NCBI GenBank assembly: GCA_014763665.1
Contig: JACXUY010000017.1
Coordinates: forward strand, 1-32,733
DNA length: 32,733 bases
Origin: Gammaproteobacteria bacterium
Lineage (GTDB): Bacteria; Pseudomonadota; Gammaproteobacteria; Thiomicrospirales; Thiomicrospiraceae
Direction: 5' to 3'
Shown here: positions 2,682-20,259 of the stretch, in pieces
How positions within the stretch are numbered: the first letter of the stretch is position 1
How the letters are laid out: the number at the start of each line of letters is the position of its first letter
Translations under genes and position numbers: made by a program
The notes under the pieces: model-generated
Told to the model about the DNA's origin: nothing
Database searches by the model: none
What the model saw: the letters and a program-made list of their open reading frames with translations, nothing else

Positions 2682-2687
2682 GCATGA

Positions 2688-3050
2688 GAGTGGATTAAAC
2701 AATCGCTGGCAGGTAACTGCTGGAGGAAAGTCCGGGCTCCATAGGGCAGGATGCTAGGTAACGCCTAGGCAGCGCGAGCTGACGGAAAGTGCAACAGAGA
2801 GCTGAACCGCCAAAGTAACGCAAGTTACTGGTAAGGGTGAAAAGGTGCGGTAAGAGCGCACCGCAGGACTGGTAACAGGACTGGCAGGGTAAACCCCATC
2901 CGGAGCAAGACCAAATAGGGGAACCATTCATGCTTGCATGAATAGAGATGGCCCATCTCGTTCCCGGGTAGGTTGCTACAGGTGTTGAGCGATCAACATC
3001 GCAGACGAATGATTGTTCACGACAGAACCCGGCTTATCGATCCACTCAAT
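2688..3050 (+). ncRNA. rnpB: RNase P RNA, bacterial type A
   Basis: This is the catalytic RNA of RNase P, which removes tRNA 5' leaders. The hallmark 5' core GAGGAAAGTCCGGGCTCC lies near 2722-2739, and the 3' core ACAGAACCCGGCTTA near 3023-3037; these pair in helix P4. The ends close by GAGTGGA (2688-2694) pairing with TCCACTC (3041-3047), as in helix P1. Internal elements such as GGTAAGGGTGAAAAGGTGCGGTAAGAGCGCACC fit the type A layout. The location between rsmI and mraZ matches several gammaproteobacteria. Ends are good to a few bases. Open frames reading through this region on the minus strand are not genes. Confidence 0.96.
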
Positions 3051-3083
3051 TTTCTCTCTTTTTTCTGCTGAATCTGTCTTTTT

Positions 3084-3354: not shown

Positions 3355-3383
3355 TTGAGAAGTGGTTTTTGCGTTGGTAAAAT
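3355..3383 (+). promoter_or_regulatory. Predicted mra promoter heading the dcw cluster
   Basis: TTGAGA (3355-3360), a 17-bp spacer and TAAAAT (3378-3383) each match the sigma70 consensus at five of six positions. Initiation would be near 3390, giving a leader of about 24 bases before the mraZ start. The -10 lies inside the first of the five MraZ-box-like decamers, which fits autorepression. Confidence 0.7.
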
Positions 3384-3423
3384 ATGGGCCAATGTGGTGA
3401 AAAGTGGGAATAAGTGGAAAAAC
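3374..3423 (+). promoter_or_regulatory. MraZ operator: five in-phase TGG(G/T/A) decamers
   Basis: Five consecutive 10-bp units start at 3374, 3384, 3394, 3404 and 3414. Each has the form N-TGG-(G/T/A) followed by an A-rich or mixed pentamer: TTGGT, ATGGG, GTGGT, GTGGG, GTGGA. Direct TGGG-type repeats with a 10-bp period upstream of mraZ are the known binding pattern of the MraZ repressor. Here the array runs from the -10 across the transcript start and ribosome binding site, and its last unit contains the GTG start codon. Confidence 0.75.
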
Positions 3424-3902
3424 AATCGTCCATTACCTTTCGCGGGTTACAAGCAGCGACCTTAGATGATAAGGGACGCATGGCTGTACCTAAGCGATTC
3501 CGAGAAACCTTGCAACAAGTTTGTCAGGGTGAGGTGGTGTTGACGGTCGATATCCATGATGCCTGTTTATTATTGTACCCGATGGCGGATTGGCGGGCGA
3601 TTGAGGCCAAGTTGATGGCGATGCCCAATATGGATCCAGCAACACGTCGGGTACAACGATTGCTCTTAGGTCATGCAGTGGAAATGGAGATGGATAGCGC
3701 TGGTCGAATCCTAGTGCCCGATTTATTGCGTGACTATGCTCAGATGACCAAGGAAGTGATGTTGGTCGGTCAGGGTAACAAAATCGAGTTTTGGTCGGCG
3801 GAAACATGGCAAGCGCAACGTGAGTCTTGGATTCAGGCAACGCGCGAAGAGTTATCAACAGACTTATCGCCAAGCAGCCCGTTAATGGGGTTGAGTTTGT
3901 GA
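3414..3902 (+). CDS. mraZ: MraZ transcriptional regulator
   Basis: This 162-residue AbrB/SpoVT-like regulator represses its own operon by binding TGGG-type repeats. Both half-domains are visible: FRGLQAATLDDKGRMAVPKRFRE near residues 9-32, and a second copy, HAVEMEMDSAGRILVPDLLRDYAQM, near residues 87-111. The repeated DxxGRxxVP signature is diagnostic. The start is a GTG at 3414, directly after an in-frame TAA (3411-3413), so no longer form is possible; GGGAA just upstream acts as the ribosome binding site. The start codon lies in the last operator repeat, so bound MraZ could also hinder initiation. The TGA overlaps the rsmH ATG. It heads a dcw operon that here includes ftsZ as third gene. 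Confidence 0.96.
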   Translation: MEKQSSITFRGLQAATLDDKGRMAVPKRFRETLQQVCQGEVVLTVDIHDACLLLYPMADWRAIEAKLMAMPNMDPATRRVQRLLLGHAVEMEMDSAGRILVPDLLRDYAQMTKEVMLVGQGNKIEFWSAETWQAQRESWIQATREELSTDLSPSSPLMGLSL

Positions 3903-4807
3903 TGACTTCTCATGTCCATGCGCCTGTGCTGTTTCGGGAATGTTTGGATGCTTTGGCAATCAAGCCAGATGGTGTTTACGTAGATGGCACTTTTGGTCGA
4001 GGTGGGCATAGCGCTGGTATTCTTGCTCACTTGGGTGTGCAGGGACGTCTCGTTGCTTTCGATCAAGATGCGCAAGCGATAGCTTTTGGTCAAGCTAAGT
4101 TTGCTGATGATAAACGGGTTGCCTTTGTGCATGCGAACTTTGCTGAGTTGGCAAGCAGACTGATTGAGCCAGTTGATGGCATTTTGTTGGATTTGGGGGT
4201 TTCGTCACCTCAGCTAGACAATGCGGATCGGGGCTTTAGTTTTATGCAAAAAGGCCCGCTGGATATGCGTATGAATACCAATGCGGGTCTGACCTTGGCG
4301 GAACGTTTGGCGCAAACCAGTCTCGATGAATTGACTTGGGTGCTGAAAACCTATGGTGAAGAGAAGTTCGCGCGCCGCATCGCGACTGCCGTATTGTCGG
4401 CGCAGCAGGCGGGTGTTTTGACGGATACGCTGAGCTTGGCCGAAGTGATTGCGCAAGCACAGCCAGTGAAGGATAAATATAAACATCCAGCAACGCGGAG
4501 TTTTCAGGCGTTGCGGATTTGGGTTAACGATGAGTTGGGTGTGTTGCAGCGGGTATTGTCCGATGCGATTGACCAACTCAAACCAGGCGGACGGTTGGCG
4601 GTGATTAGTTTTCATTCGTTGGAAGATCGCTTGGTGAAACAGTTTTTTCGCGATCAGTCGCGTGGTCGTTATGACGATGCATTGCGACAGGTGGTGACAG
4701 AGCCAAGGGTGAAATCTTTAGGTAAGGTTTTTCCAAGCTTGGCAGAAACAGAGCAAAATCCACGTGCGCGTAGTGCCATATTACGTGTCGTGGAACGGTT
4801 AAATTAA
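3902..4807 (+). CDS. rsmH: 16S rRNA (cytosine-1402 N4)-methyltransferase RsmH (MraW)
   Basis: This 301-residue SAM-dependent methyltransferase modifies N4 of C1402 in 16S rRNA, the same nucleotide targeted by RsmI. Motifs: HAPVLFRECLDAL at the N-terminus, YVDGTFGRGGHSAGIL (SAM-binding loop), DGILLDLGVSSPQLDNADRGFSF, GPLDMRMN, and the C-terminal RLAVISFHSLEDRLVKQFF. The open frame extends 25 codons upstream into mraZ, but the ATG at 3902 matches the family N-terminus and overlaps the mraZ stop (ATGA). Normally ftsL follows directly; here 32 bp separate it from ftsZ instead. Confidence 0.97.
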   Translation: MTSHVHAPVLFRECLDALAIKPDGVYVDGTFGRGGHSAGILAHLGVQGRLVAFDQDAQAIAFGQAKFADDKRVAFVHANFAELASRLIEPVDGILLDLGVSSPQLDNADRGFSFMQKGPLDMRMNTNAGLTLAERLAQTSLDELTWVLKTYGEEKFARRIATAVLSAQQAGVLTDTLSLAEVIAQAQPVKDKYKHPATRSFQALRIWVNDELGVLQRVLSDAIDQLKPGGRLAVISFHSLEDRLVKQFFRDQSRGRYDDALRQVVTEPRVKSLGKVFPSLAETEQNPRARSAILRVVERLN

Positions 4808-4839
4808 TGTGGTGAACAGACAAAACAGGGGTGGTTGTG

Positions 4840-6057
4840 ATGAAATTTGAACTCGAGGAAGCAGCTGTCAATATGAATGGCATGCCGGTAATTAAGGTGA
4901 TTGGCCTAGGTGGCGGTGGTTGTAACGCGCTGGATTACATGGTGCGTAGCCAAATCATTGGTGTGGATTTTGTCGCGGCTAATACCGATGCGCAGGCATT
5001 GAATAAGTCAAAAGCGAGTACGCGTATTCAATTGGGTAAGTCTGGTTTGGGTGCGGGTTCGAATGTTGAAAAAGGCAAGCAAGCGGCAACGGAAGATATT
5101 GACCGCGTGCGTAGTGCATTAGATGGTACGCATATGCTGTTCGTTACGGCGGGTATGGGCGGTGGTACGGGTACCGGTTCTGCGCCAGTCGTTGCTAAGG
5201 CAGCGCGTGATATGGGTATTTTAACCGTAGGCGTGGTAACCAGTCCTTACAGTTTTGAAAAACGTGATAAAATTGCTGCTGAAGGTATTGCTGATTTAGA
5301 GCAACACGTTGATTCTTTAATTGTTATCCCTAACGAAAAATTGCACAAAGTAGCCGGCAAAAAGTTAGGCATGTTAGATGCCTTTAATATGGCCAATAAA
5401 GTGTTGCATAACGCGGTACGTGGCGTTACCGAAGTGGTGACACGTGAAGGGTTAATCAACGTTGACTTTGAAGACGTGCGTACCATGATGGGCTTCCGTG
5501 GTTTGGCGATGATGGGTGTGGGTTCGGCAACGGGTGATGAACGTGCTAAGAATGCGACTATGGCGGCTATTTCCAGTCCTTTGTTAGAAGATATTAGCAT
5601 TAATGGTGCGCGCGGCATTCTGGTCAACGTTGTCGCTTCAGATGACTTGGGTTCGGATGAGTTTGAAGAAGTGGGTCGTTTAATCGAAAGCTTTGCTCAT
5701 CCTGAAGCGATGATTAAAATTGGTTTGGCGTTCGACGAAAACCTGGGTGATGAAGTACAAGTCACCATCATTGCAACGGGTTTAACGTTGTCAGTTGCTA
5801 AAGCACAACCTGTTGCTGAACCGGTTAAACCTGTTGCTGCTGAGCCAGCGCCTGTGGCAGAAGCAGCTCGTCCTTCTCGTTGGGTAACGCCAAATCTGAC
5901 GCCTTCTGCAACCGCACCTATGCCGAATATTCCTGGTTTGGTCGGTGGCAATATTGCTGGATTGCGTCAGGGCGCTCCTGGTGTGATTGGTGCACCTCAC
6001 AATGAAAGTCATGCCTACTTAAACATTCCTTCGTGGATTCGCAAACAAGCCAATTAA
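4840..6057 (+). CDS. ftsZ: Cell division protein FtsZ, at an unusual position in the dcw cluster
   Basis: This 405-residue tubulin homologue forms the Z-ring. The GTPase is complete: VIKVIGLGGGGCNAL, NTDAQAL, tubulin signature GGGTGTG (residues 107-113), and the T7-loop catalytic triad Asn207, Asp209, Asp212 in NVDFEDVRTMM. A Pro/Ala/Val-rich linker of about 70 residues leads to the conserved C-terminal peptide YLNIPSWIRKQAN, which in E. coli FtsZ binds FtsA and ZipA. I chose ATG 4840, preceded by AGGGG at 8-nt spacing, over an in-frame GTG at 4831. ftsZ normally follows ftsA; here it lies between rsmH and ftsL, and none follows ftsA. Differences from E. coli FtsZ include GGGGCN and GFRGLAMMGVG after the T7 loop. 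It appears intact and functional. Whether a second ftsZ exists elsewhere cannot be seen. Confidence 0.97.
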   Translation: MKFELEEAAVNMNGMPVIKVIGLGGGGCNALDYMVRSQIIGVDFVAANTDAQALNKSKASTRIQLGKSGLGAGSNVEKGKQAATEDIDRVRSALDGTHMLFVTAGMGGGTGTGSAPVVAKAARDMGILTVGVVTSPYSFEKRDKIAAEGIADLEQHVDSLIVIPNEKLHKVAGKKLGMLDAFNMANKVLHNAVRGVTEVVTREGLINVDFEDVRTMMGFRGLAMMGVGSATGDERAKNATMAAISSPLLEDISINGARGILVNVVASDDLGSDEFEEVGRLIESFAHPEAMIKIGLAFDENLGDEVQVTIIATGLTLSVAKAQPVAEPVKPVAAEPAPVAEAARPSRWVTPNLTPSATAPMPNIPGLVGGNIAGLRQGAPGVIGAPHNESHAYLNIPSWIRKQAN

Positions 6058-6086: not shown

Positions 6087-6416
6087 ATGATGAAGAACGC
6101 CCCGTTACCCGGATTGTCAATTCTGTGGTCATGGGGCGCTTTTGTCTGGATTTTACTGATTGTTTCGCTCATCACCAGTGCAATTGCGGTAGTGTGGGTA
6201 AAGCATCAGGTCCGTCTTACCTCGACACAGCTTCATAAAAGCGTGAAGCAGGACTATGCCCTACGCGTAGAAGAGGGGCGTTTGCAATTAGAGTATAACC
6301 ACTTGTTGTCTAGTACTCGTATTGAACAAATAGCACGCAACAAGCTTGGTATGTCGCCTATTACAGCGGCACAAGAGCGGGTGTTGTTGTTGCCAGAAGG
6401 GTCGATTCAACCATGA
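6087..6416 (+). CDS. ftsL: Cell division protein FtsL
   Basis: This 109-residue bitopic membrane protein is part of the FtsQLB complex that activates FtsWI. A short cytoplasmic N-terminus is followed by one membrane segment (about residues 15-38, FVWILLIVSLITSAIAVVWV) and a periplasmic coiled coil (KHQVRLTSTQLHKSV...). The end shows the typical ARNKLGMSPIT-like motif. Length is normal. No strong ribosome binding site precedes the ATG at 6087; the next codon is also ATG. The stop overlaps the ftsI start. It lies 29 bp after ftsZ, whereas it usually follows rsmH. Confidence 0.93.
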   Translation: MMKNAPLPGLSILWSWGAFVWILLIVSLITSAIAVVWVKHQVRLTSTQLHKSVKQDYALRVEEGRLQLEYNHLLSSTRIEQIARNKLGMSPITAAQERVLLLPEGSIQP

Positions 6417-8071
6417 TGCGTGGTAGTCAACGCGATCGGGTGATTTTTGCCTTAATTGTGCTGGCCTTTGCTGCACTCCTCTTTGGCGCTTGGCGTGTCA
6501 TGATTGAACAAGCCAGTTTCTTGCAGCAAGAAGGGGATAAGCGTCAAATTCGTCATGTCACTTTGCCAGCAGCACGGGGTCCGATTTTAGATAGGCGTGG
6601 TCATGTGTTGGCCATGAGTACGCCGATGATTTCGGTCGCTATCGACCCTAAAACCTTACAGGGGCAGACGGATTATCAAACTTCATTGGCATCGGCATTA
6701 CGTATGCCGCTGGAAGTGGTTCAAGAAAAAATCGAAGCCAATGCGAGTAAACGCTTTTACTATTTGAAGCGTGGTTTGACACCAGAAGCAGCTAAGTTGA
6801 TTGAGCGTTTACCTTTGGAAGGGGTGCATTTAGTTCCTGAGTTTAAGCGTTTTTATCCCTCTGGTGAAGTGATGTCGCACGTGATTGGCTTTACCAATAT
6901 TGATGATAGTGGCATTGAAGGCATTGAGCTGAGTTACAACGATTGGTTGAAAGGCAGCCCAGGCGTACGTAAGGTCATTCGTGATAATTTGGGTCGCGTG
7001 ATTGAAACGGTAGATGAGATTCGTCCGGCGCATGAGGGTAAAGCGCTGACCTTGTCGATTGATCGCGATTTACAGTTTTTTGCCTATCGTGCACTGAAGC
7101 GAGCCATGATTGAGCATCAGGCGAAAGCGGCTGGGTTAGTGCTGTTAGATGTGAAAACAGGTGAGATTTTGGCTATGGTCTCTCAGCCAGGTTTTAATCC
7201 TAACGATCGCTCGCAGGTGACGGCTAATCAAACGCGCAATCGCGTGGTAACGGATGTATTCGAACCGGGTTCTACCATTAAACCGGTTATTGTGGCTGGT
7301 GCGTTAGAACTGGGAACGATTAAACCCGATGCGGTGATTGATACTGGAAATGGCAAATATATGTCAAATGATAAGCTGGTTAAGGACCATCATGGTTATG
7401 GTCAGTTGGACTTGGCGGGCATTTTGCGCAAATCTAGTAATGTGGGCATGGTTAAAATTGTAGAGGGCATGTCGCGAGAGGAAGTGTGGCGTTTTTTACA
7501 TTTCTCCGGCATTGGTCAGGAAACCGGCATTGTTTTTCCCGGTGAGCAAACAGGGCGATTGCGCGATCCGCTAGAGTGGTATCCGGTAACGAAAACAACG
7601 GCTGCCTATGGTTATGGTTATAACGTGACCTTATTACAGTTGGCACGATCTTATGCAGTATTAGCCAATGATGGGGTGTTGTTGCCATCGAGCTTGATCA
7701 AGCTTGAAGGGCTACCCACGCAGGGTAAGCGGGTATTTAAGTCAGAAAATGCGCGTTTGGTGGTGCGCTTGATGGAAGAAGTGGTCAGTATGCAGGGTAC
7801 GGGGCGTAAAGCGGCGATTCCGGGCTATCGGGTAGCAGGCAAAACAGGAACGACACGTAAAGCGAATAAGGGCTATGATTCGGATAAATATCGTGCTTTG
7901 TTTGTGGGCATTGCACCAGCAACAGCTCCCCGTTTCGTAATGGCGGTAACCGTGGAAGAACCCAGTCGCGGAAAATATTATGGTGGGGATGTGGCCGCGC
8001 CCATTTTCAAAGAAGTGATGGAGGAGGCGCTACGCTTGATGGCAGTTCCCCCTGATGATGTGGCGAGATAA
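6413..8071 (+). CDS. ftsI: Septal peptidoglycan transpeptidase FtsI (PBP3)
   Basis: This 552-residue class B penicillin-binding protein cross-links septal peptidoglycan in partnership with FtsW. A membrane anchor lies at about residues 6-28. The dimerisation/pedestal domain opens with ARGPILDRRGHVLA. The transpeptidase domain has the nucleophile motif STIK (Ser287), the SSN triad (341-343) and KTGT (Lys477). Length is close to E. coli FtsI (588). It overlaps ftsL by 4 bp and is followed closely by murE. No truncation or missing catalytic residue is seen. Confidence 0.97.
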   Translation: MMRGSQRDRVIFALIVLAFAALLFGAWRVMIEQASFLQQEGDKRQIRHVTLPAARGPILDRRGHVLAMSTPMISVAIDPKTLQGQTDYQTSLASALRMPLEVVQEKIEANASKRFYYLKRGLTPEAAKLIERLPLEGVHLVPEFKRFYPSGEVMSHVIGFTNIDDSGIEGIELSYNDWLKGSPGVRKVIRDNLGRVIETVDEIRPAHEGKALTLSIDRDLQFFAYRALKRAMIEHQAKAAGLVLLDVKTGEILAMVSQPGFNPNDRSQVTANQTRNRVVTDVFEPGSTIKPVIVAGALELGTIKPDAVIDTGNGKYMSNDKLVKDHHGYGQLDLAGILRKSSNVGMVKIVEGMSREEVWRFLHFSGIGQETGIVFPGEQTGRLRDPLEWYPVTKTTAAYGYGYNVTLLQLARSYAVLANDGVLLPSSLIKLEGLPTQGKRVFKSENARLVVRLMEEVVSMQGTGRKAAIPGYRVAGKTGTTRKANKGYDSDKYRALFVGIAPATAPRFVMAVTVEEPSRGKYYGGDVAAPIFKEVMEEALRLMAVPPDDVAR

Positions 8072-8074
8072 CAA

Positions 8075-9505
8075 ATGAAGACAACGCAAGTGAAAACTTG
8101 GCAAGCCTTATGTGAATGGTTGGGGGTTTTGGGTGAGCAAGATAGCGCGCCCTTGGCGCACTTGACCCGTGATTCACGCCTCTGTCAACAGGGCGATGTG
8201 TTTATTGCTTTGCCAGGAGTGCATCAGCATGCTGCTCATTATGCCCTGCAAGCGCGTGCACAGGGTGCATGGGTCGTCTCTGATGTGATGCGCGAAGGAG
8301 TGCATCTGTGTGTGCCTGATTTGGCGCATCGTTTGGGCGCATTATTGAATTGGTTTTATGATAATCCGAGTCAATCCATGCGCTTGGTCGGTATTACAGG
8401 TACCAATGGCAAGACGTCGGTGAGTCATTATGTGGCGCAGTGGTTGCATCAGCTGGGGGATTCGGTTGCGGTATTGGGCACGGTGGGTAATGGGCGTTGG
8501 GGGCAGTTGCAATCATCAACCCATACCACATTAGATGCGCCTTTATTGTATCGGCAATTGGCGCAATGGCGTGATGAGGGTGTTTCGGTGGTGGTGATGG
8601 AGGTTTCTTCCCATGCCATTCATCAAAATCGGATTGCGGGCTTGTCCTTTGCTGTCGTGGCGTTAACCCAAGTAACGCGAGATCATTTGGATTATCACGG
8701 TTCGATAGCGGCTTATCGTGCCGAAAAAGCGCGTTTATTTACCGATTGGCCAGCACAGGTTGCGGTGTTAAATCTGGACGATGGACTGGGTGCTGAGTTG
8801 GCGTCAACTGTTTCATCAGTATTAACTTATGCGGTGAAGCATGAGGCAGCGCTGATGGCAAGGTCAGTTGATTGTGTCTCTGAAGGCCTGCGTGTTGATC
8901 TCAACTTGAGTCAAACGTCATGGCAGGGGGTGTTGCCGCTTTATGGGTTATTCAATGTTGAAAATGTGTTGTGTGCCTTGGGTTGTATGCAGGGTCTCGG
9001 CATTCCTTTAGCCTCTGTTGTGAAATGCTTACCAACAACGCAACCCGTTGCGGGGCGGATGCAATGGATGCGTCAGCAACCGCGAGTGCTGGTCGATTAT
9101 GCGCATACGCCAGATGCGTTAGAAAAAGCGTTACTGGCACTACGCGCTCACGTGCAGCATGGTCGTGTATGGTTGGTTTTTGGTGCAGGCGGTGACCGTG
9201 ATCAGGGTAAACGTCCCTTAATGGGTGCGGTGGCTAACCGTTATGCTGATGTGGTGATTGTTACCGACGACAATCCTCGCTCGGAGGTTCCAGCTGACAT
9301 TGCCGCCGCAATATTGCAGGCATGTGATAAAGACAAGGCGACCTATATTGCCGATCGCGCAGCAGCGATTTGTCGTGCTATTTTTAATGCCAAGGACAAT
9401 GATGTGGTGTTGATTGCCGGAAAAGGTCATGAAGATTATCAAGAGATAGCGGGTGTGCGTCATCCTTTTTCAGATAGGGAAGTGATTCAACAATGCATGG
9501 CATGA
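8075..9505 (+). CDS. murE: UDP-MurNAc-tripeptide synthetase MurE (meso-DAP adding)
   Basis: This 476-residue cytoplasmic ATP-dependent ligase adds meso-diaminopimelate to UDP-MurNAc-L-Ala-D-Glu. Motifs: HLTRDSR in the N-terminal domain, P-loop GITGTNGKTSVSHY, MEVSSHAI, VDYAHTPDALEKAL, and DNPR at residues 399-402, which marks the meso-DAP-specific enzymes. The C-terminal IAGKGHEDYQ motif is present. It begins three bases after the ftsI stop and ends overlapping murF. Length is typical. Confidence 0.97.
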   Translation: MKTTQVKTWQALCEWLGVLGEQDSAPLAHLTRDSRLCQQGDVFIALPGVHQHAAHYALQARAQGAWVVSDVMREGVHLCVPDLAHRLGALLNWFYDNPSQSMRLVGITGTNGKTSVSHYVAQWLHQLGDSVAVLGTVGNGRWGQLQSSTHTTLDAPLLYRQLAQWRDEGVSVVVMEVSSHAIHQNRIAGLSFAVVALTQVTRDHLDYHGSIAAYRAEKARLFTDWPAQVAVLNLDDGLGAELASTVSSVLTYAVKHEAALMARSVDCVSEGLRVDLNLSQTSWQGVLPLYGLFNVENVLCALGCMQGLGIPLASVVKCLPTTQPVAGRMQWMRQQPRVLVDYAHTPDALEKALLALRAHVQHGRVWLVFGAGGDRDQGKRPLMGAVANRYADVVIVTDDNPRSEVPADIAAAILQACDKDKATYIADRAAAICRAIFNAKDNDVVLIAGKGHEDYQEIAGVRHPFSDREVIQQCMA

Positions 9506-10950
9506 ATTGGACATTGGCTGACATAGCATCGGTTTTAGCGGTAGAAGTGGTTGGCAACCCAGAGGCGTTGATTCAACGGGTCATAACCGATAGTCGTATA
9601 GCCAGTGCCGGCGATTTGTTTGTTGCCTTAGTGGGTGAACGAGCCAATGGACATGATTTTGTGGCTTCGGTAATTGAACAAGGCGCCCTTGCCTTGTTGT
9701 TGACGCAAGCGCCTAAACAGCCTCTATCGGTGCCCTATTTGCTTGTCGAAGATGCAGTAACCGCCATGCAACAATTGGCTGCCGCTTGGCGGTTGAAACA
9801 TCGGCTTAATCCGGTGGTGTTGATCACCGGTAGCAATGGTAAAACCAGTGTCAAAGAAATGATTCGTGCTGGCTTATCGGCACGAGATGGAACAGGCGTA
9901 CTGGCGACGCAAGGTAATTTGAATAATCACCTTGGTGTGCCGATGACGCTTTTGTCTTTGTGTGATGAGCATGATTCGGCGGTGATTGAGGTGGGTGCGA
10001 ATCATGTGGGTGAAATCGCTCAGCTAGGAGCTTTAGCCGCCCCCAGTGTGGCGGTGATTACCAGTATTGGACGAGCCCATGTTGGAGAGTTTGGTTCTTT
10101 AGATAATATTAAACGAGCTAAAGGCGAAATTTGGCAGGCCTTACCCGCAACGGGTGGTGTGGCAGTCGTTCCTGTGGTTGAAGCTGATAGTGAGTTTGAC
10201 GGTTGGTCTTTCTGGCAAGATGCCTTAGCACCGCATAGAGTGATTGCCTTTGGTGACATGACTAACTTGAGTGTTAATCGGGGCTGGCAAGCGTGGGTGG
10301 GTGTGGTTGAGCGTCAAGCAACAGCCGATGGTCAGCTGGTTCGTTTAGCCACCAGTGATTGGGGTGATGCGACGCTTCAGTTACCGATTGCGGGAGCGCA
10401 TCAAGCCAATAACTTTGCAGCGGTGGTGGCTGCTTTGTTGGCATCGGGGTTAAGTTGGCAAAGCATTCAAACTGGGTTGAGTGAAGCTAAGCTACCAGGT
10501 GGGCGTTTACGGTTGTTAACGCCTTTACCAGATTTACTGATTATTGATGATACCTATAATGCCAACGCAAGCTCCATGAAAGCGGCGATTGGTGTGTTAA
10601 TGGAACAATCGGCGAAAACTCATGCCTTTGTTATGGGGCCGATGGGTGAATTGGGTGATGAGTCGCAAGCTTTGCATGAGCAAGTAGTTGATTTCGCTTG
10701 TGAAGCTGGAGTGAAAGCATTCTTGGCTTCAGGGCCATTGAGTGCGTCTTTAGTGCAACGATTTGATGTGCAGCAGCCTTTAGCTGATGTGACTTTGGCT
10801 AGTGAGGATACGCAGCGATTGGCGGAAGCCTTGTGGCAGCTGTATCAACAAAAAGGCTCGATGGCTGTTTTGGTAAAAGGTTCTCGCTCTGCACGTATGG
10901 AACGGGTTGTTGAGGCATTAGTCAAACTGGCCAGTCAGTCGGCCAATTAA
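9502..10950 (+). CDS. murF: UDP-MurNAc-tripeptide:D-Ala-D-Ala ligase MurF
   Basis: This 482-residue Mur ligase adds D-Ala-D-Ala to UDP-MurNAc-tripeptide, completing the cytoplasmic pentapeptide precursor. Motifs: TDSRIASAGDLFVAL (substrate domain), ITGSNGKTSVKEM (P-loop), GNLNNHLGVPMTLL, VIEVGANHVGEIA, IIDDTYNANASSMKAA and VLVKGSRSARMERVV. Two in-frame ATGs are possible (9493 and 9502). I chose 9502 because it forms the usual ATGA overlap with the murE stop and gives the family-like start MNWTLADIASVL. The N-terminus is uncertain by three residues. Confidence 0.96.
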   Translation: MNWTLADIASVLAVEVVGNPEALIQRVITDSRIASAGDLFVALVGERANGHDFVASVIEQGALALLLTQAPKQPLSVPYLLVEDAVTAMQQLAAAWRLKHRLNPVVLITGSNGKTSVKEMIRAGLSARDGTGVLATQGNLNNHLGVPMTLLSLCDEHDSAVIEVGANHVGEIAQLGALAAPSVAVITSIGRAHVGEFGSLDNIKRAKGEIWQALPATGGVAVVPVVEADSEFDGWSFWQDALAPHRVIAFGDMTNLSVNRGWQAWVGVVERQATADGQLVRLATSDWGDATLQLPIAGAHQANNFAAVVAALLASGLSWQSIQTGLSEAKLPGGRLRLLTPLPDLLIIDDTYNANASSMKAAIGVLMEQSAKTHAFVMGPMGELGDESQALHEQVVDFACEAGVKAFLASGPLSASLVQRFDVQQPLADVTLASEDTQRLAEALWQLYQQKGSMAVLVKGSRSARMERVVEALVKLASQSAN

Positions 10951-10965
10951 TTTAATGGGTTAGTA

Positions 10966-12048
10966 ATGATTTTAGAGCTCATGGCTTGGTTGCAGCAGTG
11001 GTTTGGTAGTTTTAATCTATTTAACTATGTTACGTTTCGCGGGCTAATGGCGGCCTTAACCGCTTTGGTGATTTCTTTGTGGGCAGGTCCGGCGGTTATC
11101 CGTTGGTTAACGCGCCTAAAAGTGGGTCAGGCGGTACGTACCGACGGGCCGCAAACCCACTTGGTGAAAAGCGGTACGCCGACGATGGGTGGTGTGCTCA
11201 TCTTGTTGTCTGTGATTGTCAGCGCCCTTCTGTGGAGTGATTGGGATAGCCGCTACGCTTGGCTGTTGATTGTGATGACACTGGGATTTGGTGCTATTGG
11301 TTTTGTCGATGACTATAAGAAAGTGGTGTACAAAGATCCCAAGGGGCTAGCTTCGCGTTGGAAATACTTTTGGCAGTCGGTTTTGGGTTTGCTGGCCGCT
11401 TATTTGATGTTCCAATGGGCGTATTTACCAGCACATACGGAACTGCTGATTCCGTTCGCTAAAAATCTGGTATTTGAGTTGGGTCCTTGGTTCGTGCTGA
11501 TGGCTTACTTTGTTATTGTCGGTACTTCTAATGCGGTCAATTTGACCGACGGCTTGGATGGCTTAGCCATTATGCCAGCGGTATTGGTGTCAGCGGCCTT
11601 GTCGGTGTTTGCTTATTTATCGGGACATGCGGTGTTTGCCGATTACCTGAATATTCCCTTTATTCCTGGTGCAGGAGAAGTGGCTATTTTTGGCGCGGCA
11701 TTGGTCGGTGCTGGGCTGGGTTTCTTGTGGTTCAACACCTACCCAGCGCAAGTGTTTATGGGCGATGTGGGTGCTTTAGCTATTGGAGCTGCCTTGGGAC
11801 TGATGGCGGTTATGGTGCGACAGGAGCTGGTGTTGGTCATTATGGGCGGTATTTTTGTTATGGAAACCTTGTCGGTGATGATTCAGGTCGCCTCGTTCAA
11901 ATTGACAGGCAAGCGCGTGTTCCGCATGGCACCCTTGCATCACCACTTTGAGTTGAAGGGTTGGCCCGAACCGAAAGTGATTGTGCGTTTTTGGATTATT
12001 ACGCTGATTTTGGTTCTGGTTGGCCTAGCCAGTTTGAAGGTTAGGTAA
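10966..12048 (+). CDS. mraY: Phospho-MurNAc-pentapeptide transferase MraY
   Basis: This 360-residue integral membrane enzyme transfers phospho-MurNAc-pentapeptide to undecaprenyl phosphate, making lipid I. It has about ten hydrophobic segments. Family motifs: [25 protein letters not shown] (the DD pair), [32 protein letters not shown], and the [14 protein letters not shown] loop near the C-terminus. Length equals E. coli MraY. It lies 15 bp after murF. Confidence 0.97.
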
Positions 12049-12051
12049 CTT

Positions 12052-13404
12052 ATGTCGGTATTAGTGGCAGGATTGGGTTTGTCGGGGCAAGCGGCATTGC
12101 GCTTTTTAGTAGCGCAGGGCGATGCCTGTATTTTTGCTTATGATACGCGTGCCGACTTGGATATTCAGTCTTTGCAGCTTAGTTTCCCTCAAGTCACCTT
12201 TGCCTGTGGTGAGTTGCCAGCAAGCTGGGCAAGGCAAGTGCAAATGCTGGTACTCAGTCCAGGCATTGATCCTAAAGCGCCTTGGGTTCAGTCATTGGTG
12301 AATGCGGGCGTGAGTTTGGTCGGTGAAATTGAACTTTTTTGTCGTTCTTTGCCCGCGGACAAACCGGTCGTTGCCATTACTGGCAGTAATGGCAAAAGCA
12401 CGGTCACCACTTTGGTGGGCGAATTATTGAAAGCGCAGGGCTATCAGGTCGCAGTCGGTGGTAATTTGGGTACACCCGCCTTGGACTTACTCATGCAGTC
12501 TGCTGATGTTGATGTGTTTGTGCTGGAATTGTCGAGTTTTCAATTAGAAACGACGCAGAGTTTGTTAGCAACGACGGCTACAGTCTTGAACATCAGTCCC
12601 GACCATCTCGATCGTTATGGCGATATGGCGAATTATATCGCGGCAAAAGCGCCGATTTATCATATGACCCGTTTGGCAGTAGTAAATCGTGATGATGCCG
12701 TCGCGGCTGGTTTGGCCGATGCACGAGTGCCTCAGTTGCGTTTTGGGCTACAAGCTCCTGAACAAGCGGGAGATTATGGCTTAACACAGGTGGATGACGC
12801 GGAATGGTTGAGTCAGTGGTTGTTTGATGAGCCAGCGCCGCGTTTGCTCATGAAAACGGCACAGGTAGCACTGATGGGGCGGCACAATCTGAGTAATTGC
12901 TTGGCCGCTTTGGCCTTGTGTCAGCCGTTCGGCTTGCACATTCAGGTGATTGAACAGGTGTTGTCGCGTTTTGGCGGTTTAGCCCATCGTGCCCAGCTGG
13001 TTCGTAAGCTCAATGGTGTGCATTGGATCAATGATTCTAAAGGAACGAATGTCGGCTCGACAGTTACGGCGTTACAGAGTTTGGGTGCGCAGGCGCGCAT
13101 TATTTTATTAGCTGGTGGTCAGGGTAAAGGGCAGGATTTTTCTGAATTGTCGCAACCATTGGCTGAGTTCGCGCGCGCGCTGATTGTTTTTGGTGAAGAT
13201 GGCGAGCAAATCGCACTTTGTGCACCTGATGGCTGTCCGGTTTATGCTGTTTCAGATATGCCGGCTGCGGTCACGCTGGCAAACAGCTTGGCGCAGGCGG
13301 GTGATGTGGTGTTATTGTCGCCAGCCTGTGCCAGCTTTGATCAATTCCGTAGCTACATGCATCGTGGCGAAGTCTTCACGCAAACGGTGATGCAACTGTC
13401 ATGA
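12052..13404 (+). CDS. murD: UDP-MurNAc-L-Ala:D-Glu ligase MurD
   Basis: This 450-residue Mur ligase adds D-glutamate to UDP-MurNAc-L-alanine. Motifs: VAGLGLSGQAALRFL at the N-terminal nucleotide-like fold, LSPGIDP, AITGSNGKSTVTTLV (P-loop), GGNLGTPALDL, LELSSFQLE, NISPDHLDRYG, WINDSKGTNVGST, and the C-terminal LLSPACASFDQFRSYMHRG signature typical of MurD. The start is three bases after mraY and the end overlaps ftsW. Confidence 0.97.
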   Translation: MSVLVAGLGLSGQAALRFLVAQGDACIFAYDTRADLDIQSLQLSFPQVTFACGELPASWARQVQMLVLSPGIDPKAPWVQSLVNAGVSLVGEIELFCRSLPADKPVVAITGSNGKSTVTTLVGELLKAQGYQVAVGGNLGTPALDLLMQSADVDVFVLELSSFQLETTQSLLATTATVLNISPDHLDRYGDMANYIAAKAPIYHMTRLAVVNRDDAVAAGLADARVPQLRFGLQAPEQAGDYGLTQVDDAEWLSQWLFDEPAPRLLMKTAQVALMGRHNLSNCLAALALCQPFGLHIQVIEQVLSRFGGLAHRAQLVRKLNGVHWINDSKGTNVGSTVTALQSLGAQARIILLAGGQGKGQDFSELSQPLAEFARALIVFGEDGEQIALCAPDGCPVYAVSDMPAAVTLANSLAQAGDVVLLSPACASFDQFRSYMHRGEVFTQTVMQLS

Positions 13405-14687
13405 TGAAGTTGATGAAACGTGGATTTCAAATCCGTCCTTGGCGACTTGAGGATAATGCCTCCATTGATTGGACTTTAGTGGGTGTGATGCTCATGCTTT
13501 CTTGTCTTGGCGTGGTGATGGTGGCGTCCGCATCGGTGGCCATTGCGGAAAGACGCTTTGGTATGGAACTACGCTATGCGTTGCAACAGCTGGTGTTTCT
13601 GTTGGGGTCACTGGTCGTTGCTGTCTGGGTCGTTCAAAAAACAACGCTCAGTTGGTGGAAAGAAAATCGGGGGTTATTGTTACTGATTGCGATGGTATTG
13701 GTGATGATGACTTTGGTATTAGGGCGAGAAATCAATGGTGCTAAACGCTGGCTGAGTTTGGGTTTTTTTAATTTGCAACCGTCCGAGTTTTTGAAACTGA
13801 TTGTCATCGTGTTTATGGCAGCCTACATCGAAAAGAACTTCCAACAACAGCAGGATGCACAGGGTAATCGCGATTGGAAATTAGAAAAAAAACAACAAAT
13901 GCAAGCCATTAAGTTGCTGATGTTGCCCCTAATCCCTATTTTCTTACTACTGTTACTACAACCCGATTTCGGTAGTCTGATGGTAGTGTTGTTGCTGGTT
14001 TTTGCCATGTTATTGATTGCGGGCGCACCCTTGCGGCTATTGCTGTCAGTGGTTCCGTTAGGTTTGGCGCTGGTTGTGGTGATTATTATCGAGCCTTACC
14101 GATTGGCTCGCGTGGTGAGCTTCTTAGATCCGTGGAAGGATGCACAAAATACCGGTTATCAATTGACCCACTCGCTGATGGCGTTGGGGCGGGGTGATTG
14201 GTTTGGTGTTGGTCTGGGTAACAGTGTTGAAAAGCTCTTTTATTTGCCCGATGCCCATACCGATTTTCTGTTTGCCATTTATGGTGAAGAATTTGGTTTC
14301 ATCGGTGTTGTCGCCTTAGTGTTGCTTTATTTAGTGATGATCTGGCGTATTTTCCGCATTGGTCGCGTGGCCGCCGAGCGTGAACAAACCTTCGCCGCGC
14401 TGATTTGTTACGGTGTGGGCGCTTGGGTCGCGCTGCAGGCATTGATTAATATGGGCGCCAATTTGGGGCTGCTGCCGACTAAGGGTTTAACCTTGCCGTT
14501 GGTCAGCTATGGCGGTTCCAGCTTATTAATGTCAATGCTGGCACTGGGCTTGGTGTTACGCATTGATTGGGAAAATCGCCATGCCCATTTGGTGGTGGTC
14601 ATGCCGACCGCTGCCCCTGTGTCGAGCGATCTGGTGGATACCAAAGGTCTGAGAACGAAAATTCATGCAACGGAGAAGTCGGCATGA
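13401..14687 (+). CDS. ftsW: Septal peptidoglycan glycosyltransferase FtsW (SEDS family)
   Basis: This 428-residue SEDS-family membrane glycosyltransferase polymerises septal glycan together with FtsI. About ten transmembrane segments are visible. Family motifs: FFNLQPSEFLKLIVIVF, LLQPDFGSL, DPWKDAQNTGYQLTHSLMALGRG, and the extracytoplasmic loop FYLPDAHTDFLFAIYGEEFGFIG with the essential acidic residue. The C-terminal GLTLPLVSYGGSSLL motif is present. A cytoplasmic insert of charged and Gln-rich residues (near KNFQQQQDAQGNRDWKLEKK) follows the third or fourth helix. It overlaps murD and murG by 4 bp each. Confidence 0.97.
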   Translation: MMKLMKRGFQIRPWRLEDNASIDWTLVGVMLMLSCLGVVMVASASVAIAERRFGMELRYALQQLVFLLGSLVVAVWVVQKTTLSWWKENRGLLLLIAMVLVMMTLVLGREINGAKRWLSLGFFNLQPSEFLKLIVIVFMAAYIEKNFQQQQDAQGNRDWKLEKKQQMQAIKLLMLPLIPIFLLLLLQPDFGSLMVVLLLVFAMLLIAGAPLRLLLSVVPLGLALVVVIIIEPYRLARVVSFLDPWKDAQNTGYQLTHSLMALGRGDWFGVGLGNSVEKLFYLPDAHTDFLFAIYGEEFGFIGVVALVLLYLVMIWRIFRIGRVAAEREQTFAALICYGVGAWVALQALINMGANLGLLPTKGLTLPLVSYGGSSLLMSMLALGLVLRIDWENRHAHLVVVMPTAAPVSSDLVDTKGLRTKIHATEKSA

Positions 14688-15793
14688 AGGTGATGATTGC
14701 CGCAGCAGGAACGGGTGGTCATGTGTTTCCCGGTTTAGCGGTAGCTGAAATGCTCAAACAACAAGGTCATGCTGTGGTGTGGTTGGGAACAGAACAGGGA
14801 AAAGTGGTGCAGTGGGTGGAGCAGGCCAGTGTGCCCTTTTGTGCCATTGCCATGCGGGGTGTGCGTGGTAAGGGCTGGCGCGGCTGGTTGGCGGCGCCCG
14901 TTCAGTTGTGGCAAGCCTTTCGACAGGCTTTACAGCACTTGCGTGAGCAAAGCCCTGATGTGGTGTTGGTGATGGGGGGGTATGTCTCTGTTCCAGCTGG
15001 TTTGGCAGCTCGTTGGTTGCGCATTCCTTTGGTCGTGCACGAACAAAATTCCATTGTGGGTTTGAGTAATCGTTTGTTGGCGCCGCTGAGCCAGTCCTTG
15101 CTATTGGGCTTGCCTTTGCAGTCAGTGCCAATGGGATGGGCTCGAGCGCATTGGGTAGGTAATCCCTTGCGTGCTATGTTGCAGCGTCAGGTCAAGACAG
15201 CTCCAGCTCGACCCTTACGCGTTTTGGTTATCGGTGGTAGCCAAGGAGCGCAGTTCCTCAATGAATGCTTGCCAGAGGTGATGCGCGATTGGTCAGCGCG
15301 TCACGAGCTGAGCTTGTGGCATCAAACTGGCTCACAGATGCAGGTACAAGTTGAAACAGCTTATCAGCAAGCTGGTGTGAAGGCGCGTGTTACCAGCTTT
15401 ATTCAGGATATGGGTGAAGCCTATGCATGGGCGGATGTGGTGATTGCGCGAGCAGGGGCGTTAACGGTCACAGAGTTGCTGCAAGTGGCACGCCCAGCCG
15501 TGTTCATTCCTTTTCCCCATGCGGTCGATGACCATCAGTACACCAATAGTCTTGTGCTGGTTCAGATCGGCGTGGCCGATGTGCTGCGTCAATCAGAAGC
15601 GAGTGTTGAGGCATTACGTGACCGATTGAGCGATTACCTTTACAATCCTCAATCTTTAAGTCATCGCTATGCACTGCTCAATCAGCAAGCGGAAAACAAA
15701 GCAGCGGAAAAGGTCGTGCAAATTTTAATGGACGTGGTGATGTCATCGCATACCGAAGGTCTCACAACGAAAACCACAACAGAAAAAGAATAA
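14684..15793 (+). CDS. murG: UDP-GlcNAc:lipid I GlcNAc transferase MurG
   Basis: This 369-residue peripheral membrane GT-B enzyme adds GlcNAc to lipid I to make lipid II. Motifs: AAAGTGGHVFPGLAVAE (glycine loop), RGVRGKGW, VVLVMGGYVSVPAGLAA, VVHEQNSIVGLSNRLL, VIGGSQGAQFLNE, and ADVVIARAGALTVTELLQVARPAVFIPFPHAVDDHQ. The open frame runs 39 codons further upstream inside ftsW, but the ATG at 14684 gives the family N-terminus, has GGAGAA upstream, and overlaps the ftsW stop. The C-terminal Thr/Glu/Lys tail is slightly longer than in E. coli. Confidence 0.97.
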   Translation: MKVMIAAAGTGGHVFPGLAVAEMLKQQGHAVVWLGTEQGKVVQWVEQASVPFCAIAMRGVRGKGWRGWLAAPVQLWQAFRQALQHLREQSPDVVLVMGGYVSVPAGLAARWLRIPLVVHEQNSIVGLSNRLLAPLSQSLLLGLPLQSVPMGWARAHWVGNPLRAMLQRQVKTAPARPLRVLVIGGSQGAQFLNECLPEVMRDWSARHELSLWHQTGSQMQVQVETAYQQAGVKARVTSFIQDMGEAYAWADVVIARAGALTVTELLQVARPAVFIPFPHAVDDHQYTNSLVLVQIGVADVLRQSEASVEALRDRLSDYLYNPQSLSHRYALLNQQAENKAAEKVVQILMDVVMSSHTEGLTTKTTTEKE

Positions 15794-15808
15794 TAGGAAT
15801 AGTCAACA

Positions 15809-17197
15809 ATGAGTATGTCAAAGCGAGTCAGTCGCATTCACTTGGTGGGCATTGGTGGTTCGGGAATGTCGGGCATTGCTGAAGTGTTGCTGACGCAAGG
15901 CTTTGTTGTGAGTGGTTCGGATGCGAAAGCGTCGGCGGTTACCGCTCATTTGAGTGCCTTAGGTGCTCAGGTCAGCATTGGTCATGACGCTAGTCTCGTA
16001 CAAGATGCCGATGTGGTGGTGGCTTCGACTGCCATTGCTAAAGACAACCCTGAACTGGTGGCGGCACGAGCGGCACGCGTGCCTGTTATTCCGCGTGCCG
16101 AAATGTTGGCCGAAATGATGCGTGGTAAATTTGGTATTGCTGTCGCTGGAACACACGGCAAAACCACCACCACAAGTTTAGTTGCCAGCGTACTGGCAGA
16201 AGCTGGCTTAGACCCGACTTATGTGATTGGTGGTCGCTTGAACAAAACGGGCACTCATGCCTGTTTGGGAGCAAGTAATTATTTGGTTGCTGAAGCGGAT
16301 GAATCGGATGCTTCCTTCCTCTACTTAAAGCCGATGATGAGTATCGTCACTAATATTGATGCGGACCATATGGAAACCTATGGTGGCAGCTTTGAAGTCT
16401 TGACCGATACTTTTTCACAATTTTTGCACCACTTGCCCTTTTACGGGCTGGCGATTGTGTGTATTGACGATGCAGGCGTGCAGGGCTTACTGCCACGCAT
16501 TACGCGTCCGGTTGTACGTTATGGGCTGAGTGAAGGCGCGGATATTCGTGCTATCAATATTCAGCACCAAGGGTTGCGCTCGACATTCACCGTGCAGGCA
16601 TACCAGCAGACACCTTTTGAGGTCACCTTGAATATTCCCGGTGAGCATAATGTGCGAAATGCCTTGGCGACCATCGCTGTTGCCTTAGAATTGGGTGTGT
16701 CCATTGAGGCCATTCAACGCGCCCTAGCACAATTTCACGGTGTGGGTCGTCGCTTTGATGTCTATGCCAATCGTTCTTTGTTCGATAAACAGGTAACGCT
16801 GGTGGATGATTATGGGCATCACCCGACCGAATTAGCAGCGGTGTTGAGAACAGCGAGAACCGCGTTTGCCCAACAGCGTCTGGTTTCTGTTTTCCAACCG
16901 CATCGTTACACACGCACACGCGATCTGCTCGATGATTTTGCCGCTGCCTTGATGTTAGCCGACTTAGTGGTACTACTGCCCGTTTATTCGGCAGGAGAGT
17001 CTGCTATTGCTGGCGCAGACAGTAAAGCCATTGCTCAAGCCATGCGCTTGCGAGGCTTCCAAAGTGTGGTGGTAGCGGACAGTATGGCGCAACTCAATTC
17101 CGTTGCCAAAGGTCTGCTCTTAGCCGGTGACGTGGTGTTGACCATGGGGGCGGGTGATATTGGACAACTCAGTAAACAATGGCGGGAGGAAGCCTGA
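15809..17197 (+). CDS. murC: UDP-MurNAc:L-alanine ligase MurC
   Basis: This 462-residue Mur ligase adds the first amino acid, L-alanine, to UDP-MurNAc. Motifs: RIHLVGIGGSGMSGIAEVLL, GIAVAGTHGKTTTTSLVA (P-loop), EADESDASFLYL, NIDADHMETYGG, NIPGEHNVRNALATIA, DDYGHHPTELAAVL and FQPHRYTRTRDLLDDF. GGAAT lies upstream of the ATG; an internal ATG two codons later could also be used. It is 15 bp after murG and overlaps ddl by 1 bp. murB is not between murC and ddl, an arrangement also known in gammaproteobacteria. Confidence 0.97.
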   Translation: MSMSKRVSRIHLVGIGGSGMSGIAEVLLTQGFVVSGSDAKASAVTAHLSALGAQVSIGHDASLVQDADVVVASTAIAKDNPELVAARAARVPVIPRAEMLAEMMRGKFGIAVAGTHGKTTTTSLVASVLAEAGLDPTYVIGGRLNKTGTHACLGASNYLVAEADESDASFLYLKPMMSIVTNIDADHMETYGGSFEVLTDTFSQFLHHLPFYGLAIVCIDDAGVQGLLPRITRPVVRYGLSEGADIRAINIQHQGLRSTFTVQAYQQTPFEVTLNIPGEHNVRNALATIAVALELGVSIEAIQRALAQFHGVGRRFDVYANRSLFDKQVTLVDDYGHHPTELAAVLRTARTAFAQQRLVSVFQPHRYTRTRDLLDDFAAALMLADLVVLLPVYSAGESAIAGADSKAIAQAMRLRGFQSVVVADSMAQLNSVAKGLLLAGDVVLTMGAGDIGQLSKQWREEA

Positions 17198-18111
17198 TGC
17201 AGAAGAAACCAATCATTGCCGTATTGCGTGGTGGCAGTGCTAATGAACGTGAGATTTCATTACGTTCTGGCGCGGCGGTTGTCGAGGGCTTGCAGCAAGC
17301 AGGTTATGAGGTGCTCGACTGGCCTGTTGATGGGTTGACTGATGTGATTGCCTTAGTGCAACAAGCGCCTCGTCCTTTATTGGTGTTTAATGTGTTGCAC
17401 GGTCGCGGTGGTGAAGATGGTCAGTTGCAAGCCCTGTTAGAGGTGCTGAAGGTGCCTTACACGGGAAGCGGTTTGTTGGCGAGCGCCTTGTCAATGGATA
17501 AAGTGGTCACCAAACGCATTTGGCAAGCGATGGGCTTGCCAACGGCAGATTATTACCAAGTGACTCAGGCATCTCTAGCGACTTTTGATGTTGATGCAGT
17601 GCGCTATCCAGTTATGGTGAAACCGGCACGAGAGGGGTCGAGTATTGGTATGTTCAAAGTGGACTCTGCCGATAATATGCAATCCGCTTTGACGCAGGCG
17701 CTCACTTTTGACGATCATGTGTTAGTTGAATCATGGATTGATGGTGCCGAATATACGGTCGCGATTTTAGGCGATCAGGCTTTGCCGATGATCCGCCTGA
17801 AAACGCCTAATGTGTTTTATGATTATGAAGCCAAATATCAAGCCAATACCACTGAATATCTCTGCCCCTGTGGGCTGTCTGCGGAAGCAGAAGAAGCTAT
17901 TCAAGCCTTGGCATTGGAAGCTTTCCATGCGTTGGGAGCTAAGACGTGGGGACGTATTGATGTGATGATTGATCAGCAAGGACAACCTTGGTTGCTGGAA
18001 TTGAACACCGTACCCGGTATGACCGATCATAGCTTGGTTCCCATGGCAGCAAAACAAGCAGGGCTCAGCTTCGATCAGCTGGTTGACCGTTTGGTGCAGT
18101 TATCGATATGA
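17197..18111 (+). CDS. ddl: D-alanine--D-alanine ligase
   Basis: This 304-residue ATP-grasp ligase forms the D-Ala-D-Ala substrate of MurF. Motifs: VLRGGSANEREISLRSG, FNVLHGRGGEDGQLQALLE, PYTGSGLLASALSMDK, VMVKPAREGSSIGMFKV, GRIDVMIDQQGQPWLLELNTVPGMTDHSLVP. I chose ATG 17197 (GGGAGGA upstream, overlapping the murC stop) over ATG 17179, which would add six residues. This short form corresponds to E. coli DdlB (306). The end overlaps ftsQ by 4 bp. Confidence 0.97.
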   Translation: MQKKPIIAVLRGGSANEREISLRSGAAVVEGLQQAGYEVLDWPVDGLTDVIALVQQAPRPLLVFNVLHGRGGEDGQLQALLEVLKVPYTGSGLLASALSMDKVVTKRIWQAMGLPTADYYQVTQASLATFDVDAVRYPVMVKPAREGSSIGMFKVDSADNMQSALTQALTFDDHVLVESWIDGAEYTVAILGDQALPMIRLKTPNVFYDYEAKYQANTTEYLCPCGLSAEAEEAIQALALEAFHALGAKTWGRIDVMIDQQGQPWLLELNTVPGMTDHSLVPMAAKQAGLSFDQLVDRLVQLSI

Positions 18112-18875
18112 ATTGGCTTTCACGAGCATGGCAGAAACTAGCCCGTTGGTTCTTGTGGTTTGGTAAAGCGATTTTGCTTACCCTATTCGCGGGTGTGCTC
18201 ACTTGGGGTGGACTGCAAGCTTGGCACTTGTGGAATGGTCACCAACAGGGTGAGCTGATTCAGGTCAAACTGGTGAATGAAGGTGCTAAAGTAACGGAAG
18301 CCGAATTGACGGAGTTACTGCGACCGCAATTAGGTATTGGCTTTTGGCAGCTAGATTTGCCCAGTATTCGTAAGCTGGTTGAAAGTCACCCTTGGGTAGC
18401 TCATGCCGAAGTGTCTCGTTTTTGGCCTAGCACTCTGCGTGTAGAAATTGTTGAGCAGATTCCAGTGGCGCGTTGGGGGGATACGGGGTTTGTCAATCAA
18501 ATGGGTGAGATTTTTTATCCCAGTCAGGGGGTTGAACTGCCAGATTTGATTCGTTTATCGGCGGTGAATCCAGACCCTTTGGCGGTATTGGCTATGCTCA
18601 AACAGGTATTAGCATTGATTAATCCCTATGGTTTGCATGTTGTAGCCATGCACCGATTAGCCGATGAAAGTTGGCACCTTTGGTTGGTTAATGGAGATGA
18701 GTGGCTACTCCCCAAGCAGGAAGCGATACTTGGTTTAAAACAATTGTTGGTGCTTTACGGCACTATTCCGAAACAGGAAGGGACAAAGATGCGTATTGAC
18801 CTTCGTTATCGTGATGGTTTTGCGGTAAAATGGCAACCAGTAGAAAATTCCACACCGTCAGAAAGTCAACCTTAG
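18108..18875 (+). CDS. ftsQ: Cell division protein FtsQ
   Basis: This 255-residue bitopic protein has one membrane segment (about residues 13-37) and a periplasmic POTRA domain beginning near QGELIQVKLVNEGAKVTEAELTELL. The beta domain includes VESHPWVAHAEVSRFWPSTLRVEIVEQIPVARWGD, which is characteristic of FtsQ/DivIB. It scaffolds FtsL and FtsB at the septum. It overlaps ddl by 4 bp and is followed by ftsA after 8 bp. FtsL is encoded about 12 kb upstream in the same cluster; ftsB is not in the window, as usual. Confidence 0.95.
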   Translation: MNWLSRAWQKLARWFLWFGKAILLTLFAGVLTWGGLQAWHLWNGHQQGELIQVKLVNEGAKVTEAELTELLRPQLGIGFWQLDLPSIRKLVESHPWVAHAEVSRFWPSTLRVEIVEQIPVARWGDTGFVNQMGEIFYPSQGVELPDLIRLSAVNPDPLAVLAMLKQVLALINPYGLHVVAMHRLADESWHLWLVNGDEWLLPKQEAILGLKQLLVLYGTIPKQEGTKMRIDLRYRDGFAVKWQPVENSTPSESQP

Positions 18876-18883
18876 GAAATATT

Positions 18884-20170: not shown

Positions 20171-20222
20171 TGCCAATGCCAGCGGCTTGAACGAACCTTA
20201 GTCAGTTTAAGTCATCGCTTAT

Positions 20223-20230
20223 GCTATAAT
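20223..20230 (+). promoter_or_regulatory. Predicted extended -10 promoter for lpxC
   Basis: A TATAAT (20225-20230) follows a G and C with the sequence TGCTATAAT, so a full extended -10 (TGnTATAAT) is present. No good -35 is seen at 16-18 bp. Initiation near 20237 would leave about 23 bases before the lpxC ATG at 20260. The promoter lies in the ftsA-lpxC gap, where ftsZ would normally be. Confidence 0.6.
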
Positions 20231-20259
20231 ATGCCAATTTTTTTATGGAAAGCGAACCG

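Follow-up and report, generated by a model that had tools for sequence, protein, structure and literature searches.

A relocated ftsZ close behind a putative MraZ operator in the dcw cluster of Thiomicrospirales

In the order Thiomicrospirales, ftsZ lies between rsmH and ftsL near the head of the dcw cluster, and its usual slot between ftsA and lpxC holds no ftsZ. With a probability of roughly 0.8, we take this to be the single native ftsZ, which moved within the cluster, has been inherited vertically, retains its ordinary function and has its expression tied to MraZ and the promoter Pmra. Few gene neighbourhoods in bacteria are as conserved as the ftsA-ftsZ pair, and in E. coli the ratio of FtsZ to FtsA is important for division. 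An order in which the two genes lie apart, at separate loci in most genera, is a natural experiment on whether this linkage matters. The relocation also brings ftsZ close behind the regulator MraZ, whose purpose is to our knowledge unclear, and offers a natural test of how the amount of FtsZ is set.

Gene order of the window and its FtsZ

The stretch of DNA analysed here (the window; 32,733 bases) comes from a member of the Thiomicrospiraceae, a family of sulfur-oxidising bacteria, and belongs to a genome of 2.17 Mb in 238 contigs that is 100% complete. Its gene order is rsmI-rnpB-mraZ-rsmH-ftsZ-ftsL-ftsI-murE-murF-mraY-murD-ftsW-murG-murC-ddl-ftsQ-ftsA-lpxC-(opposite-strand ORF)-secA. On the forward strand, the class A RNase P RNA gene rnpB (2687..3052; Rfam RF00010, 321 bits) lies between rsmI and the putative mra promoter and is followed by mraZ (3414..3902; TIGR00242, 156 bits), rsmH, also called mraW (3902..4807; TIGR00006, 343 bits), ftsZ (4840..6057; TIGR00065, 360 bits) and ftsL (6093..6416, with a start at about 6087-6093; TIGR02209, 63 bits vs a cut-off of 42). 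The genes from ftsI to ftsQ then follow in their usual order on the same strand (6413..18875) and were identified with NCBIfam, apart from ftsI and murE, which were assigned from their position and from conserved homologues in relatives. The last division gene of the cluster is ftsA (18881..20170, forward strand; TIGR01174, 450 bits), which adjoins lpxC (20260..21174, forward strand; TIGR00325, 389 bits; alternative in-frame ATG at 20245), and the end of ftsZ lies 12.8 kb upstream of ftsA. Between lpxC and secA, a 174-aa ORF on the reverse strand (21185-21709) had no NCBIfam or Pfam match.

The initial annotation had described a complete ftsZ as the third gene of the cluster, and this was borne out. 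The ORF scored 360.2 bits against an NCBIfam equivalog cut-off of 295.2 for TIGR00065, and all three expected motifs were present: the GTPase signature (GGGTGTG), read from the sequence as AGMGGGTGTGSAP, the T7 loop NVDFEDV, and the C-terminal FtsA/ZipA-binding peptide, retained as AYLNIPSWIRKQAN where most relatives have YLDIPAFLRRQAD. A Shine-Dalgarno-like AGGGG precedes the gene at 4827-4831. No second ftsZ was found by protein and HMM searches of the whole 2.17-Mb genome. The usual slot of the gene, the forward-strand gap between ftsA and lpxC (20171..20259), contains a TATAAT-like element at about 20225; on inspection it held no ftsZ remnant, as had been noted before, and is too short for one. 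No traces of mobile elements were seen at the junctions.

FtsA homologues occur throughout the order, and ZipA-like proteins were found in 61 of its 63 genomes, all of them scoring under the curated cut-off. Judging by its motifs and by the presence of both partners, the protein would polymerise with GTP, with FtsA and ZipA anchoring it to the membrane by way of its C-terminal peptide. It thus appears to be an ordinary gammaproteobacterial FtsZ with Z-ring formation as its likeliest function, and nothing in the data suggests a changed role. Variation in FtsZ was seen elsewhere. Some members of genus g2 (G010, G025, G004, G034, G066 and G076) have a longer FtsZ frame of ~460-500 aa, apparently with a longer C-terminal linker, and the FtsA of the same members is more diverged (42-51% identity to the window FtsA vs 57-61% in most of the Thiomicrospiraceae). 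Two or three FtsZ-like genes are present in some other proteobacterial genomes (G321, G328, G336 and G340).

Extent across the order and origin of the gene

In the taxonomy searched, Thiomicrospirales comprises one family with 63 genomes, of which 44, from seven genera, had a readable ftsZ neighbourhood. In all 44, many of them with a single contig, rsmH is followed by ftsZ and then by ftsL/ftsI, although tblastn missed the short ftsL in some. The four genomes of the window's genus share an identical gene order; in three members (L032, L033 and L034) the contig breaks between rnpB and mraZ, ~1.6 kb before ftsZ. That ftsA-ftsZ is the usual arrangement in Proteobacteria, as the initial annotation had stated, agrees with the ~69 genomes read from Proteobacteria outside the order, of which ~50 belong to the same class and 19 to other classes; every one of them has ftsA directly upstream of ftsZ. 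Coordinates were compared in 120 genomes of the class: ftsZ and rsmH were at the canonical distance of 12-20 kb in 87, on different contigs in 25, more than 20 kb apart in 3 and less than 3 kb apart in 5, the last being three Thiomicrospiraceae and two genomes of one other family (f89). We date the move to the ancestor of the order, so that the clade sharing it is wider than the genus or species.

The position of ftsZ is older than a later split of the cluster. In a concatenated tree, the deepest branches of the family are the window's genus (g1) and then g7 (100/100), and in both the moved ftsZ is found inside a cluster that is intact in other respects. It follows that ftsZ moved before the split after murG that is found in most other, later-branching genera. 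Where one contig holds both genes, ftsA is ~30-60 kb from ftsZ in g2, g3 and g6, and the distance ranges from 40 kb to several hundred kb in g5. In g6 and g2, ~16 kb lie between murG and murC (G057 and G061), a block without counterpart in the window's genus and g7. In G057 it encodes chemoreceptors, lgt, thyA, a ZnuA-like protein, SufB/SufD-type proteins and a class-V aminotransferase, and ORF sizes suggest the same content in G061.

Phylogenetic analysis supported a native origin. In the FtsZ tree, which the initial annotation had proposed as a check, the Thiomicrospiraceae sequences form one clade (SH-aLRT 99) and the FtsZ of other Proteobacteria form their own separate clade (SH-aLRT 99). 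A concatenated tree of ten other dcw-region proteins (4,111 columns) places the family in the same way. Joining the family with the non-gammaproteobacterial rows was not rejected in the FtsZ test; the family may be the earliest branch of the Gammaproteobacteria sampled, and it has this position in the concatenated tree too. The agreement between FtsZ and its former neighbours on the position of the family favours a move of the native gene rather than its replacement.

Two other origins have to be weighed against this one. Misassembly, against which the initial annotation had cautioned, might be suspected in a MAG-like genome where the window is one of many contigs, and it is rejected because the same order recurs in all four genomes of the genus as well as in many single-contig genomes of other genera; an accessory paralogue is rejected as well, as the gene is the only ftsZ of its genome and scores above the equivalog cut-off. 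Either of the two is now scarcely credible. The initial annotation had also allowed for a second ftsZ that was inserted while the original was lost. In its xenologous form, the ancestor of the order would have gained a foreign gammaproteobacterial ftsZ between rsmH and ftsL, yielding an identical gene order. The family FtsZ does sit on a fairly long stem, that of the window's genus forms a long branch within the family, as might be seen had a related gammaproteobacterial gene taken its place at the base of the order, and single-gene trees resolve deep gammaproteobacterial branches poorly. Against such a replacement stand the agreement between FtsZ and the concatenated neighbours, the separate clade of FtsZ from other Proteobacteria, and the clean junctions with neither a remnant of an old copy nor mobile-element traces. 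Its contact partner FtsA, moreover, drops comparably in the window's genus (FtsZ to 52% and FtsA to 53%, vs 70% each). We consider replacement improbable, and a shift of the native gene in the ancestor of the order, from the ftsA-lpxC slot to the rsmH-ftsL slot, accounts for both the gene order and the trees, with vertical descent keeping ftsZ in its new place.

Sequence divergence was compared at three levels: among other Gammaproteobacteria, between the family and these, and between the window's genus and these. Identities were 70%, 58% and 52% for FtsZ, 70, 62 and 53% for FtsA, and 68, 54 and 57% for LpxC. As FtsA and LpxC fall comparably, we do not claim a strongly accelerated evolution of FtsZ after the move. 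FtsZ and FtsA of the window's genus have diverged further than those of the other family members, and MraY, MurC and LpxC have not; in the few genomes at hand, this weakly fits a co-variation of the pair that would have persisted despite their separation.

Putative MraZ control and a second lineage

The initial annotation had placed ftsZ under the mra promoter, a position that can now be sharpened to directly behind a putative MraZ operator. The putative promoter (3355..3383, forward strand; TTGAGA - 17 nt - TAAAAT, extended -10) matches the consensus at 10 of 12 positions and is the best forward-strand match in the region scanned; the scan found 4 matches vs 4.5 expected, no excess over chance, and was used only for the position of the promoter. 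Just downstream of the putative -10 element and running into the start of mraZ is the putative operator (3385..3418, forward strand), an array of TGGG/GTGGT/GTGGG/GTGGA repeats at an exact 10-bp period. It contains at least three repeats and scored 12.5 of 13.5, which none of 300 shuffles equalled. The MraZ box of E. coli is made of TGGG-type repeats with the same 10-bp spacing. A triple MraZ-type array precedes mraZ at 24 of the 25 family loci tested; at the remaining one there is almost no sequence upstream. In the window, ftsZ is the third gene behind this putative promoter and operator.

Control of this kind has precedents. MraZ boxes lie upstream of the dcw cluster in E. coli, and direct AAAGTG[T/G] repeats are found in Mollicutes, as cited in PMC8475190. 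In Neisseria elongata, MraZ regulates the five genes that follow mraZ (PMC9395523), and PMC5061873 attributes many promoters to E. coli ftsZ, citing work on the ddlB-ftsZ region. From the operator position, the five-gene effect in N. elongata and the many promoters of E. coli ftsZ, we infer that FtsZ synthesis in the order follows Pmra and MraZ activity alongside that of rsmH, ftsL and ftsI. The gene would no longer be served by promoters of the kind known from the E. coli ddl-ftsQ-ftsA region, and FtsA would be made from a separate segment, at a separate locus in most genera of the family. Even so, ftsZ might be transcribed on its own from promoters within rsmH. As cultivable members of Thiomicrospirales exist, control of FtsZ by MraZ is directly testable.

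A similar placement of ftsZ was found in f89, an order of six genomes in the same class. In all five in which ftsZ was found (G150, G256 and G345-G347), the order is rsmI-rnpB-ftsZ-mraZ-rsmH, with one ftsZ at 9984-11108 of locus L134 and the others at L135, L183, L184 and L186, and the MraZ-type array stands before ftsZ and not before mraZ. In two genomes followed further, the cluster ends in ftsQ-ftsA-lpxC-secA, with no ftsZ after ftsA. The concatenated tree groups f89 with other Gammaproteobacteria and leaves the window's order outside (bootstrap 96, SH-aLRT 98). Constraining the two orders to group together gave a p-AU of 0.066, close to rejection, in the careful concatenated tree with three rows left out, of 0.87 in a quick tree with all rows, where the constrained tree was the better one, and of 0.43 with FtsZ alone. 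Since the end states of the two orders differ, two moves are a simpler reading than one shared move. A tandem duplication of the whole cluster is an unlikely route for f89, given an operator before ftsZ and not between ftsZ and mraZ. In both lineages, ftsZ now appears to lie in the first part of a putatively MraZ-controlled operon.

Whether the move had any regulatory meaning bears on how these parallels are read. The rearrangement might have been neutral, the cluster being one long transcript anyway: in Burkholderia cenocepacia, Pmra alone transcribes the whole cluster, distal ftsZ included, according to PMC7761207, which also marks putative MraZ-site repeats in that promoter. A new slot therefore does not by itself imply a new regulator. 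The cluster was also generally loosened in the family and later split after murG. However, ftsZ kept its slot throughout the order even as other parts of the cluster separated, the second lineage likewise has ftsZ behind an MraZ operator, and the N. elongata regulator, in the study cited above, acts mainly on the first few genes. A neutral rearrangement seems to us rather unlikely. Going beyond the relocation and inferred MraZ control of ftsZ, we raise tentatively, with less than even confidence, the idea that ftsZ left the ftsQ-ftsA-ftsZ end independently in two lineages and came to lie immediately after the MraZ operator, with selection favouring direct control of FtsZ dosage by MraZ and with a balanced Z-ring not requiring ftsZ to be linked to ftsA.

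Comparison with known systems

In the dcw gene-order literature searched, mostly titles and abstracts with subscription journals largely outside the search, no published account of the ftsZ placement in this order was found. A stable relocation of ftsZ throughout an order, together with another instance in the same class, is apparently new within that literature. Compared with the canonical E. coli-type cluster (mraZ-rsmH-ftsL-ftsI-...-ftsQ-ftsA-ftsZ-lpxC), the window shares all genes, the strand and the remaining order, and lpxC and secA lie downstream as in the relatives read; ftsZ, however, is third, after rsmH, and not after ftsA. The f89 cluster resembles that of the window in having ftsZ at the head behind an MraZ operator and none between ftsA and lpxC, but differs in that ftsZ comes before mraZ and not behind rsmH. 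In layout, the closest known cluster is that of Mycoplasma genitalium, mraZ-mraW-MG_223-ftsZ, as given in PMC8475190, where ftsZ likewise follows close behind mraZ and mraW. The Mollicute promoter described there carries direct GTG-type repeats bound by MraZ, and the window has a similar putative array. Whereas the Mollicute cluster consists of four genes in a wall-less cell, the window has kept the full wall cluster and moved ftsZ within it.
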